64,000 bases of DNA. It comes from Methanofollis aquaemaris (GTDB taxonomy: Archaea > Halobacteriota > Methanomicrobia > Methanomicrobiales > Methanofollaceae). The stretch spans positions 1,338,561 through 1,402,560 of the forward strand of contig NZ_CP036172.1 in the NCBI RefSeq assembly GCF_017357525.1, in the 5' to 3' direction. Of the stretch, positions 5,801 through 20,178 are shown one piece after another. Both the position numbers and the translations under genes were made by a program. Below the pieces are notes generated by a model. The model was not told where the DNA came from. It saw only the letters and a program-made list of their open reading frames with translations, and did no database searches. How positions within the stretch are numbered: the stretch's first letter is position 1; each line of letters opens with the position of its first letter.

Positions 5801-8800
5801 TTATTCAAGTCTGATATACGCACGTTCATCCTTCCCCACCTGGATGATTCCGTTATAGGTCACCTCGTCACATACCCCACCGGGAATGTCTTCCAGCGCA
5901 GAAATCCGGATCTTGTACCATCCTTGTTTCCCCCTCTGGTCAAGGCTGGACGAATATGTGCCATTCATTTCCACGCCTGAAGAGAGAGAGATCATATCGG
6001 CCACTTGCCATGTGCCATCCCACCAGACATTATCCGGGCTGATCTGGTATGTGACCTCCTGTATCACATCTTCATTCCCGGTATAGGTAAGATGCCAGGA
6101 GAGATCAAGGATGCCGGAGTCCACCGAAGTGTTTAGAGAGTCCACCTGAATATCCGCCGTGGTGACATTGGTCTCTTTGAGCACCTGGACAGCAGTGATA
6201 AAGGTGTGGGGGAGACCCAGTTCTGTCTCTCCAAGCGTACCGTTGAAATGGATCCTGGATTCGTTGCCGAATATATCGATATTGCCCTCTTTGAGAACCT
6301 TAAGGCAGAACGTGGTCTCCCAGGTCTGGTTGAGGTAGATGTCCTCGATATTGAAGGAGAGCGTATTATCTTCCCAGTCGGAACTCTGGTCATAGGACTC
6401 AGGCCCCCAGAAGACCGAGTTGTTATGTGTCCAGTACTTTTCTTCCCGCGTCGATACCGGATCCTGGTACTGATATTCGAAGACATCGCTGGTGGGGGTG
6501 GTATTGATCATGACCCTATCGAAGTACAGGTCCATCGTGGTATTGACACCCGCCGCCTCCTGGAGTTTCTGGGCGATGTCCTCATAGACCCGCGTCAGGT
6601 CGTCACCTGCGGTGGCGCTGTAAAACTTACCGCCGGTGTCTTCGGCGTAGCGCCGGAGTTCTTCATGGCTCGGTTCGTCGCCGAGGGCGATTGTAAAGAT
6701 CTTGATGTCACTTTCGTTTGCGTACTGGATGACGTTTCTATTGCCCAAATCGCCCAAAGACTTCGCTTCATCTCCTCCTTCTGGATTCCCACCTGTGTTC
6801 CACTCTCCGTCAGTCAGGAGAACAATCGCTTTAACTGGATTGTCAGAGGGCCGCGGGCGGTCGATGATCATCTGCACCGATTGGTACAGGCCTTCTCGCA
6901 TTGGTGTTCCACCACAAGGAAGCCAGTTGTCAATTTCGGTGTTGACAGTCCTGTACGTTGATATCAACTCGAGGTCGCGTGTGGCGGGACCACTATATGT
7001 TTGCGAGTTATTGTAGTGTTTAGAGATGTAGTCATTGTCATCGCTTTCATCAGGTTCCCACTCACTGTAAAGTTCGATTAATTTCCAATCATTTTTTTTA
7101 ATATCCCATACGGGAACATAATATATTTCATAGATATAATCCCGTCCCGCCCAATACTTATAATAGTAACCATCCAGATTAGTTGTGCCGTTCTGACCAA
7201 ACGATACCAAGCCGATCCTGTCCTTCGCCGATTTCATCTTCGAGACAAAGACCTTCGCCGCGGCCATCGCATGGACCATACGGTCATCAATCGACTCTTG
7301 CTTAATCCACTCTTGATCATATTGATTATACCCAGAAATCGTGGTGGTATTCTTCAACATACTCCCCGACCGATCAGTACAGAGCACCACATCGATCGGC
7401 CTTGACTGGAGGGCCCACCCGTCGCCGGTCAACTGAACCGTGACATTCACCGTGCCGTTCACGGTCACGGTCCGGGGCTCGACAGAGGTACTGACGCTGA
7501 GATACGGATAGTTCCTGAAAGAAATGGTAATGTTCTCTTTTTGATCTCCCCATACAGCCTGAATGGTTGCATTCCCCGAGGCCATGCTGCTGTACCGTGA
7601 ATTCTCTGGATCCACGGTGAAGGCGCCGGGGTAAAAATCAATAGTGGCTAATCCGTCCTTATCGGTAGTAGCAAGAAGGGACACACCTTTTATCTCGGAT
7701 GTGCGGGTGTTATTCGAGATTTCCGGATCATCAGTCACCAGATATATCCCATTGTCGACACCGATAAGCCTGAATGAAACACTTTCATTTCGGACGGGAT
7801 TGCCCCTCGTGTCAGTTACTTTCGCCTTGACATGAGAGACGAGATCCTTTTTCACATCTCTGCTTGCGATGGTCTGGGGGACGGCGGTGAGGATCATATT
7901 GGTCGGTGTGGTGCTGTAGAAGCCCACGCGTTGCGCGCGTGTAACACTGCTGTTATCGACAGCAGTCGCGACAATATCTACAACACCGGCTCGCTCCGAA
8001 GGCCCGTACGTGATCATCGCCTTTCCCTGACTATTTGTCGTGACGATCCACTCACCTGCCGTCAGGGAACCGGAAACCGAACGGACATTTATTTTTATCT
8101 GACGATCCCCGGCAGCATTTCCATGCTGGTCATAGAGGGCGTAGGTGATGGAAAACGATCTGTCCAGCGGTTGTTCGGGATAGTCGTCCTCATCTAAACT
8201 CTCCGCTTTTGGAGAAACCATCTGGTAGATGGTGGATGGTTCGCCGTTTGCAAGCCCGGTGATGGTCAAATAGCGTGAATCGATGGCACCTGGAAAGTCT
8301 ATGTAGACAATATTCTCCCCCGCCGTCGTAGCGGTGGTAAGGCTGACACGAACCTCCCCCCCTTCACTAACCGGGACGACGATCTCCTTTTTCCCATTCT
8401 CAAAATAGGCACCATCCCCCGGAGACCCGACATAGAAGGCCACCGCCTCAACTTCATTTATATTGCGAGCATCGATCAGGTTCCCATACTCGTCCTCCAT
8501 TGAAAGAACGATCCCTGTCGTCGAACCGGCCGTGACCTCATTCTCACACTCTAAAGAATGAAGCCGGTACGGTGACGCATGATCGATCTCCTGTTCAAAG
8601 GTGCTGGCCCCCGTGTCCACGCCGTACCTGGCCGTCACATTGATCTGTGCGATGCCGCTCTTCTCCCCCGGCAAAAACGTCGTCACCGCCAACCCGTTCT
8701 TATCGGTCTCGACCACCATCCGGGAGAGCGATCCCATAGTAGTGTCACACGAGAAGGCAACATTGACCCCCTTCAGCGGATGACCGTCGCTGCCGTTCAC

Positions 8801-8959
8801 CGTCGCAGTCACCACCGCCCCCCCGGTGTCGCCCGCGACCAGCCACTCAGTATCGGTCTTGACCGAGATCTGCAGACCTTGCGCGGGCGTGACGGCCATG
8901 CAAATGATAAGAAGCCCGATAAAAACGAACAGGCATCCGGCACGGGATCGATCCTTCAT
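5801..8959 (-). CDS. Secreted Ig-like/VWA-domain surface protein (paralogue 1)
   Basis: A signal peptide (about residues 1-29, ending TPAQG) precedes several Big_1-type immunoglobulin-like domains (about 30-510), recognisable by repeated G-x-P-x-x-G-x-x-V and AT-D-x-x-G-x-A patterns. A von Willebrand A domain follows (about 520-790) with the metal-site motif DRSGSM and a later TDGEW. A C-terminal beta-rich region ends in YIRLE. No membrane segment or PGF-CTERM tail is seen, so attachment to the cell would need a partner. VWA domains commonly bind proteins; an adhesive or matrix role is inference. A TATA box near 8981-8993 is centred 28 nt before the ATG, indicating a leaderless transcript. 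The gene next door (9216-12218) is a paralogue with the same architecture. Confidence 0.85.
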   Translation of the reverse strand: MKDRSRAGCLFVFIGLLIICMAVTPAQGLQISVKTDTEWLVAGDTGGAVVTATVNGSDGHPLKGVNVAFSCDTTMGSLSRMVVETDKNGLAVTTFLPGEKSGIAQINVTARYGVDTGASTFEQEIDHASPYRLHSLECENEVTAGSTTGIVLSMEDEYGNLIDARNINEVEAVAFYVGSPGDGAYFENGKKEIVVPVSEGGEVRVSLTTATTAGENIVYIDFPGAIDSRYLTITGLANGEPSTIYQMVSPKAESLDEDDYPEQPLDRSFSITYALYDQHGNAAGDRQIKINVRSVSGSLTAGEWIVTTNSQGKAMITYGPSERAGVVDIVATAVDNSSVTRAQRVGFYSTTPTNMILTAVPQTIASRDVKKDLVSHVKAKVTDTRGNPVRNESVSFRLIGVDNGIYLVTDDPEISNNTRTSEIKGVSLLATTDKDGLATIDFYPGAFTVDPENSRYSSMASGNATIQAVWGDQKENITISFRNYPYLSVSTSVEPRTVTVNGTVNVTVQLTGDGWALQSRPIDVVLCTDRSGSMLKNTTTISGYNQYDQEWIKQESIDDRMVHAMAAAKVFVSKMKSAKDRIGLVSFGQNGTTNLDGYYYKYWAGRDYIYEIYYVPVWDIKKNDWKLIELYSEWEPDESDDNDYISKHYNNSQTYSGPATRDLELISTYRTVNTEIDNWLPCGGTPMREGLYQSVQMIIDRPRPSDNPVKAIVLLTDGEWNTGGNPEGGDEAKSLGDLGNRNVIQYANESDIKIFTIALGDEPSHEELRRYAEDTGGKFYSATAGDDLTRVYEDIAQKLQEAAGVNTTMDLYFDRVMINTTPTSDVFEYQYQDPVSTREEKYWTHNNSVFWGPESYDQSSDWEDNTLSFNIEDIYLNQTWETTFCLKVLKEGNIDIFGNESRIHFNGTLGETELGLPHTFITAVQVLKETNVTTADIQVDSLNTSVDSGILDLSWHLTYTGNEDVIQEVTYQISPDNVWWDGTWQVADMISLSSGVEMNGTYSSSLDQRGKQGWYKIRISALEDIPGGVCDEVTYNGIIQVGKDERAYIRLE

Positions 8960-19137: not shown

Positions 19138-19497
19138 CCCGGACCATTCTTTCAGCAGACCCCCCTGTTTTTCAGCGATCTTCAGCAGGTTTCAGCATGT
19201 GCTGCCATTCAACGGGCGACGAAGCATGGTTTGATCACTATTTTCTCCATCATACGATGAGATCACAGGATCATTTCAGCATCCCGGGGTTCGCACGCAC
19301 ACACTCCTCCGGACAGCGAGGAACCGGTGATGCCGTGTGGGGGGGTGTTTTGCTGTACTTTAGTATTGAGAGAGAGATCTATCTCTCTCTCAATACTGGT
19401 ACAGTGGAATTCAGCGCTTTTCCTGGCCCTTTGATCATGACAGCACCTGCTGAAAATCTGCTGAAAACCTGCTGAAATGCTGAAAGAATGGTCCGGG
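19138..19497. mobile_element. 360-bp element with 20-bp terminal inverted repeats and subterminal iterons
   Basis: CCCGGACCATTCTTTCAGCA at 19138-19157 is the exact reverse complement of 19478-19497. Inside each end are further copies of a CCTGCTGAAAA-type iteron: three direct 10-11-bp units at 19446-19477 on the right, and TTTTTCAGCG, CTTCAGCAGG and TTTCAGCA on the left, so the inverted symmetry continues imperfectly for about 55 bp. A long palindrome sits in the middle. There is no gene inside. It could be a non-autonomous transposable element, a replication or partition site, or a structured RNA. No target-site duplication is evident. Confidence 0.65.
19353..19404. repeat. Long palindrome (17-bp perfect arms, extended by 6 bp)
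   Basis: The arm AGTATTGAGAGAGAGAT at 19362-19378 is followed by CT and its exact reverse complement at 19381-19397. Outside these, CTGTAC (19353-19358) pairs with GTACAG (19399-19404). Together 23 bp can pair with a 2-base centre. It lies near the middle of the inverted-repeat element. Confidence 0.9.
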
Positions 19498-19627
19498 ATC
19501 ACCGCACCGCACACACATGAGAGGATGCCCCCCTGAGGATTATAATATCAAGTGACGCAGGGCGAATGTGAGGTAATGCTCAAGAACTCTCGTCATGACA
19601 GGGAGGGGGACGGGAACAGAGCACATC

Positions 19628-19750
19628 ACCCCCCTATCCTCACCATGGAGGGGTCCGGGCGGTCAGCCCCCCAGGGCGAGAGCGTGACAAAAATTTCTTC
19701 GGTTTTCTGTGAGGCGGCCCGTATGATCGACGTGCCTTTCCACACGCTCG
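19628..19750 (+). repeat. Dispersed intergenic repeat, copy D1
   Basis: The copy begins with CCCCCTATCCTCACCATGG and has a GGGGTCCGGG core. The segment from GTGACAAAAATTTCTTCGG through ATCGACGTGCCTTTCCACAC is nearly identical to the copy at 55207-55332 over about 65 bp. Confidence 0.8.
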
Positions 19751-19820
19751 CACCGGGGGCGCTTCCCCCGGACCCCCGGGATTGCGATAGGGCCGGGAAG
19801 GCAGCGAGGAGATCATCAAG
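19745..19820 (-). repeat. Dispersed intergenic repeat, copy D2 (inverted)
   Basis: This copy directly abuts D1 in the opposite orientation. Its reverse complement reads GATCTCCTCGCTGCCTTCCC, CCCTATCGCAATCC and the core GGGGGTCCGGGGGAAGCGCC, closely matching copy A near 5619-5700. Confidence 0.75.
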
Positions 19821-20178
19821 ATGGTGGTGCTGTCCCCGGCGCTCTCCTCATGTGGGGAACCAGAGGGGTCAGACCCCCGCACAAAGACCCGTACAGACAA
19901 TTTTTTCACGGCCAAAAATTTCTGTCGTTCAATCGCATGCTCCTGGCGACCTTTTGTTCTTGACTTGCCACCGCGATTGATCAGAGCGACCGGGCGAAGA
20001 TGCCCGCGCTCCGCACACCGCCACCGGTTCACTCCCCAAATTCACAGGCCCCATTTCTGCAGAAAAAAACCAGAGTGCCCGCCGGATCTTCGGCGTCTTC
20101 GAAATGTCCGGGGGGCGGAGAGGGCCAGGCCCATCCGTCACCTTTTTCTTTTGTGACGTAGAACTTATAGAGGCCCAT

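Follow-up and report, generated by a model that had tools for sequence, protein, structure and literature searches.

A gene-free iteron cassette in the Methanofollis aquaemaris chromosome, probably copied from a putative origin nested in a primase-helicase gene

The spacer of about 2 kb that separates an S-layer-type gene from a tRNA gene (tRNA-Gln) in M. aquaemaris holds a 360-bp element with mirror-oriented iterons and exact inverted ends, which raises the question of where such a structure comes from and what it might do. The original prediction, made for the window (the whole 64,000-nucleotide stretch of DNA analysed here), offered a non-autonomous transposon or an origin or partition site. 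Comparison with related sequences makes it probable, in our view, that the element derives, without the gene, from an iteron cassette for initiator binding; the parent cassette lies within a gene and is likely the replication origin of a mobile element, nested in the gene of its initiator.

Anatomy and copies of the cassette

The 20-bp ends are present as predicted: CCCGGACCATTCTTTCAGCA (19138-19157) and 19478-19497 are exact reverse complements, and the pairing does not extend to the next base. The mirror-oriented iterons were also described correctly, with 11-bp-phased units of the TTTCAGCA type and TGCTGAAA in the right arm (Table 1). There is no intact gene from the S-layer start (~18.0 kb) to the tRNA (~20.18 kb). 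The minus strand carries a remnant frame, broken by stops farther on; the tblastn alignment with residues 801-918 of a primase-helicase includes five TGA and one TAA. Just to the right of the element (~19730-19880) lies a short GC-rich repeat (CTCGCACCGGGGGCGCTTCCCCCGGACCCCCGGG...), a separate dispersed family that recurs at numerous intergenic sites in Methanofollis; dozens of matches were obtained with a GC-rich repeat near 76k (L012).

Table 1. Positions of the element and its parts within the window
Feature	Position	Strand	Basis
Whole feature: iteron cassette without gene, 20-bp exact inverted ends	19138..19497	+	Sequence comparison; 11 more genome copies
Left iteron array, (T/C)TTCAGC at 19150, 19170, ~19180, 19190	19150..19197	+	Sequence
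Inner left-type iteron TTTCAGCA	19274..19281	+	Sequence
Right iteron array, TGCTGAAA, 11-bp spacing, three units plus one outer (GCTGAAA at 19449, 19460, 19471, 19479)	19448..19486	-	Repeat family D3
Central perfect 17-bp inverted repeat AGTATTGAGAGAGAGAT/ATCTCTCTCTCAATACT (19362-19378/19381-19397), form kept in other copies	19362..19397	+	Repeat search, alignment
Family-wide unit, 338 bp	19149..19486	+	nhmmer model 1-338; 45 strong copies, 11 species
Left part of terminal inverted repeat (TIR) outside iterons; reverse complement codes EWSG, L010 codes ECSG	19138..19149	+	Matches gene sequence
Mirrored GAATGGTCCGGG end, window copy only	19487..19497	+	Copy alignment
Right extension common to copies at 1742k (147 bp, 80%) and 76k (77 bp, 79%)	19498..19645	+	
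Remnant frame homologous to cassette-encoded linker of primase-helicase (FSISAGFQQIFSRCCHDQ...)	19263..19514	-	tblastn

A search for other genomic copies, proposed together with the original prediction, revealed 12 dispersed copies in the host genome, so that the repeat is not a chance structure; 11 were obtained by DNA search at 69-100% identity, and the twelfth, at 2399.2k, was added by protein and flank searches. The family occurs in 11 of the 12 Methanofollis species searched, and outside the genus the DNA search returned only iteron-sized matches. As nearly all strong copies found with the nhmmer profile span the full model, the outermost iterons mark the limits of the shared unit (~338 bp). 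The 20-bp TIR, by comparison, is unique to the window copy: on the left, 12 bp of it follow the sequence of the parent gene, while the mirrored right end was found nowhere else, and inverted-repeat correction, with one arm repaired from the other, is its most likely source. The right extension shared by the window, 1742k and 76k copies suggests that these three spread together with it. Mutual information calculated on the 45-copy DNA alignment was mostly lineage noise, the columns of the variable iteron base n (see below) excepted.

The parent gene and its in-frame cassette

Kilobases of right flank are shared by 13 copies, and this flank leads into a primase-helicase gene, not into a transposase gene. 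The parent gene comprises ~870-980 codons with the cassette in frame in its 3' part, and the protein consists, in order, of a primase-like N-terminus, a helicase-like middle, a winged helix, the cassette-encoded linker and a C-terminal domain rich in CxxC pairs, which is Zn-finger-like. A scan of genome contigs yielded 75 loci in Methanomicrobiales; ~70 homologous genes have the cassette inside, at one position of the gene throughout the order. In the great majority of these genes, including the resident host gene at 1165795-1168770, the linker is stop-free and a multiple of three in length, with mirrored iterons; it ranges from ~360 to more than 1000 nt and is in some genes multiplied in 153-bp steps with the frame kept. 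The cassette thus lies within the frame that codes for a replication protein, as in a nested origin of the lambda O type.

A cdc6 gene is often found within a few kb of the parent gene. The region upstream of cdc6 was considered as a possible origin and rejected because it codes for small proteins. Beside cdc6 in the host (G000, ~1175.4-1176.4k; L154), G005 and G009 there are two conserved small genes, which encode a 167-aa protein (MADFVLSTTNKTSVRKL...) and an 81-aa coiled-coil plus membrane protein; neither belongs to a Pfam family, and the only PHROG match is weak and to a family of unknown function. The prim-pol part of the parent protein is similar to a Methanomethylovorans plasmid and to phages, with no confident Pfam match, and a fold search with the winged-helix fragment gave weak winged-helix matches only. 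Searches of phage and plasmid DNA with the element gave no match, a scan of IMG/VR with the primase gave no confirmed hit and none of the small contigs checked was circular; a free plasmid or virus carrying the whole primase-helicase gene was not found in those searches.

Within genes, the cassette is conserved as DNA and not as protein. In a comparison of 12 Methanofollis genes, codon positions 1/2/3 diverged by 0.274/0.292/0.312 in the cassette versus 0.139/0.109/0.327 in the core, and the 11-bp-spaced iterons fall in differing reading frames. The iterons alter in concert: agreement within elements was 0.417 compared with 0.263 +/- 0.008 after shuffling, and 9.6 versus 2.6 8-mers were common to both arms.

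Proteins of this kind have been noted before. Makarova et al. (2014, PMC4158269), the only article that a literature search with the identifier yielded, lists arCOG07809 (Mpal_2033) with prim-pol, helicase, HTH and Zn finger among putative integrated satellite viruses. Going by this description rather than by the Mpal_2033 sequence, the domain order and the archaeal order are the same as here; the passages on arCOG07809 in that article do not speak of an iteron cassette within the gene, of copies outside it or of a recognition code. In lambdoid phages the origin lies inside gene O, where extra iterons add amino acids to the O protein (PMC7466680), and the likeness consists in an iteron array within the coding sequence of its own initiator; here, however, the protein is an archaeal primase-helicase with a winged helix, two mirror arrays lie near the 3' end, the iterons vary by gene under a readable code and gene-free copies are dispersed. 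The plasmid pRN1 shares a prim-pol/helicase/winged-helix protein and an origin at the 3' end of the gene, but that origin is a 100-bp stem-loop 3' of orf904 which is said to be without iterons (PMC4234260). We rejected a single stem-loop origin of this type, since in the present genes the iterons lie inside the open frame and not downstream of it.

Association between winged-helix residues and iteron bases

The iterons have the form T-T-n-C-A-x-C and are gene-specific, n and x being uniform within an element on both arms and different between elements. Both bases are predicted by residues of the winged helix of the protein encoded by the same gene: in a ranking of ~1000 protein core columns, columns 938 and 939 came first and second for n, and column 949 came first for x. 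These columns correspond to residues 725, 726 and 736 of protein P0001, within GLSYQQTYRILHGYASRG; in the AlphaFold2 model (pLDDT ~95 over the helices) 725 and 726 open the recognition helix, whereas 736 lies in the wing. For n, the pair HQ goes with G in 18 of 18 genes, YQ with G in 7/7, QQ with T in 6/6, MG with A in 5/5, SS with G in 4/4 and QK with A in 5/6; for x, Ser goes with G in 32 of 33, Ala with A in 8/8 and Asn with C in 6/6.

Base n changes at least 12 times on the tree. Tree-independent pairs agreed in 8 of 8 cases with class labels taken from the same data; an uncircular pair test, which used Gln938 alone, gave 5/5 (p=0.06). Among held-out genes, picked solely for having few iterons, the predicted word ranked top or tied among 16 words in 11 of 13, the permuted mean being 4.4. 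Natural single-residue switches occur in L090 (Ala, TTGCAAC) versus L104 (Thr, TTGCAGC) and in L064 (His, G) versus L049 (Gln, T). The visible iterons of the Methanogenium primase gene in L105 read TTGCACC/GTGCACC, and a 'TT' count there came from a GATGATGG repeat, not from iterons; just before the cassette of this gene (~8316-8850) there is a 51-bp in-frame tandem repeat of acidic Gly/Asp-rich units.

The protein therefore appears, judging from these residue-base associations, to read its own cassette by a two-position amino-acid-to-base code, which strongly implies that it would bind the iterons and would make putative start sites predictable from the protein sequence. The notion of a protein-bound, origin-like iteron site in the original prediction is supported. 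A comparable pairing is described for geminiviruses, where, according to PMC12548392, closely related replicons differ in their iterons with matching Rep specificity; the protein and the replication mode are, however, unrelated, and the geminivirus iterons lie upstream of Rep, not inside it.

Under the proposed mechanism, the first two recognition-helix residues of the winged helix would set n and one wing residue would set x in the bound TTnCAxC word. The parent cassette, in the 3' coding part of the primase-helicase gene of an integrated mobile element and between the regions for the winged helix and the Zn-finger-like domain, would load the primase-helicase, probably together with the element's Cdc6, through its mirror-image arrays about a palindromic centre, which would make it most likely the replication origin of the element, nested in the initiator gene. 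It is from the protein domains, the cdc6 neighbours and the iteron layout that we infer origin activity; the centre is a TA-containing palindrome, only modestly AT-rich here and not clearly AT-rich. That the cassette serves instead as an operator for autoregulation of the primase-helicase, or as an RNA structure, would fit a predicted protein-binding array within its own gene and the palindromic centre, but the promoter is distant from its site close to the 3' end, paired mirror arrays about a centre resemble origins and Rfam gives no match at the window element, which makes this improbable.

Derivation and possible roles of the gene-free copies

The resident primase A (L010) has QQ and Ser, and the predicted word TTTCAGC is exactly that of the window iterons. 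The primase A cassette differs from the window element at 0 of 56 iteron positions, compared with 42 of 225 elsewhere (p=8e-5); when the element is set against the 1742k gene-free copy, the values are 1/56 and 37/221. The window copy is thus most likely a gene-free derivative of the cassette of primase A, which lost the gene and kept all iterons, and it should still bind the primase A protein. For seven orthologous pairs of copies between species, one of which (L015/L043) retains part of the C-terminus of the gene, divergence was 6.0% in the iterons versus 12.5% in the rest (p=2e-4) and 7.3% in the centre (p=0.004). Because iterons diverge less than other sites, selection seems to act on the predicted binding sites of the gene-free copies. 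Only four gene-free type-A copies of the host have the resident n=T, and older copies have mixed iterons; the other host copies have n=G, A, C or mixed, which would fit initiators that are different or have disappeared, or else decay.

A second cassette family, whose iterons are TTnCAC(C), is present in the host genome (G000) at 639481-639809, 826383-826602, 913880-914100 (L018) and 1741914-1742120 (L009). A second primase gene (1436866-1439076, L197) is its probable owner; the frame of that gene ends within the cassette, which leaves the protein without the Zn-like domain. This primase (QK, Asn) predicts TTACACC, which is present in its cassette, tied with TTTCACC. Orthologous second-type cassettes of sister species (L009 1799-2116 and L209 ~855-1200) have switched nearly all iterons together, from TTTCACC/GGTGAAA in G000 to TTGCACC/GGTGCAA in G005 or the reverse. 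In L018 (2559-2619, minus strand) there is also a fluoride riboswitch match below threshold (28.2 bits; gathering 34).

The spacer with the same S-layer and tRNA-Gln neighbours lacks the element in seven of seven relatives, which, together with the multiple copies, indicates an accessory element and not the essential site also considered originally. A chromosomal oriC was rejected for the same absence and because there is no GC-skew turn at the window and no cdc6 nearby; the window indeed lacks cdc6/orc1, as predicted, the three cdc6 genes of the genome lying elsewhere. At 1742k, the sister species G005 has only the adjacent second-type cassette; at 2399k (L045) the cassette is present in two species and lacking in a third, the element being absent from G003; and in L048 the cassette forms the breakpoint between differing left flanks (compared with L057/L073). 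A MITE, that is, a non-autonomous transposon that has iterons in its ends, was mobilised by an unknown transposase and also inserted in frame in the primase gene, would account for dispersed copies with constant outer limits, for shared extensions and for presence and absence at several sites. However, the ends are iterons without a TIR common to the copies, no clean target-site duplication was found at the window spacer (seven relatives), 1742k (G005) or 2399k/L045 (G003), where spacers have diverged, and the core belongs to a gene for a replication protein, where it occupies one position throughout the order and has iteron bases that follow the gene's own winged helix. We therefore rejected this transposon reading of the original prediction as very improbable. 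Spread by recombination between cassettes and gene loss from integrated elements fits best.

The gene-free copies might be working chromosomal sites matched to the resident initiator, which would titrate or handcuff it (replication immunity, copy control) or act as ectopic origins, a reading we hold tentatively; the window copy in particular may titrate primase A, or be an ectopic start or recombination site. Equally doubtful to us is that they are neutral scars, decaying remnants of integrated elements or of inter-cassette recombination with no present function: the remnant frame in the window copy, partial gene remnants at 431k and 2505k, the L048 breakpoint and the mixed iterons of older copies agree with this, but gene-free iterons diverge half as fast as other sites, those of the window do not differ at all from the resident gene and nearly all copies retain their outer limits. 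A decoy maintained by the host to titrate the initiator of a selfish element seems unlikely, since many copies mismatch the resident code, although the iterons are retained and, in the window copy, matched to the resident protein. For lambda, ori iterons carried on a plasmid prevent, together with oop transcription, the phage from replicating (PMC3349717), and by analogy with this exclusion a decoy role for gene-free copies would be plausible.

Our analysis provides a putative origin, a recognition rule and a chromosomal footprint for a family of archaeal mobile elements of which only the prim-pol genes, themselves uncharacterised, were known. The code linking residues to bases is exceptionally clear-cut, includes natural single-residue switches and is testable in vitro. 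The gene-free arrays raise the question whether archaeal chromosomes contain decoy origins for parasites, and if gene-free cassettes work, the code would allow each chromosomal cassette to be assigned, by its sequence, to the element it responds to.
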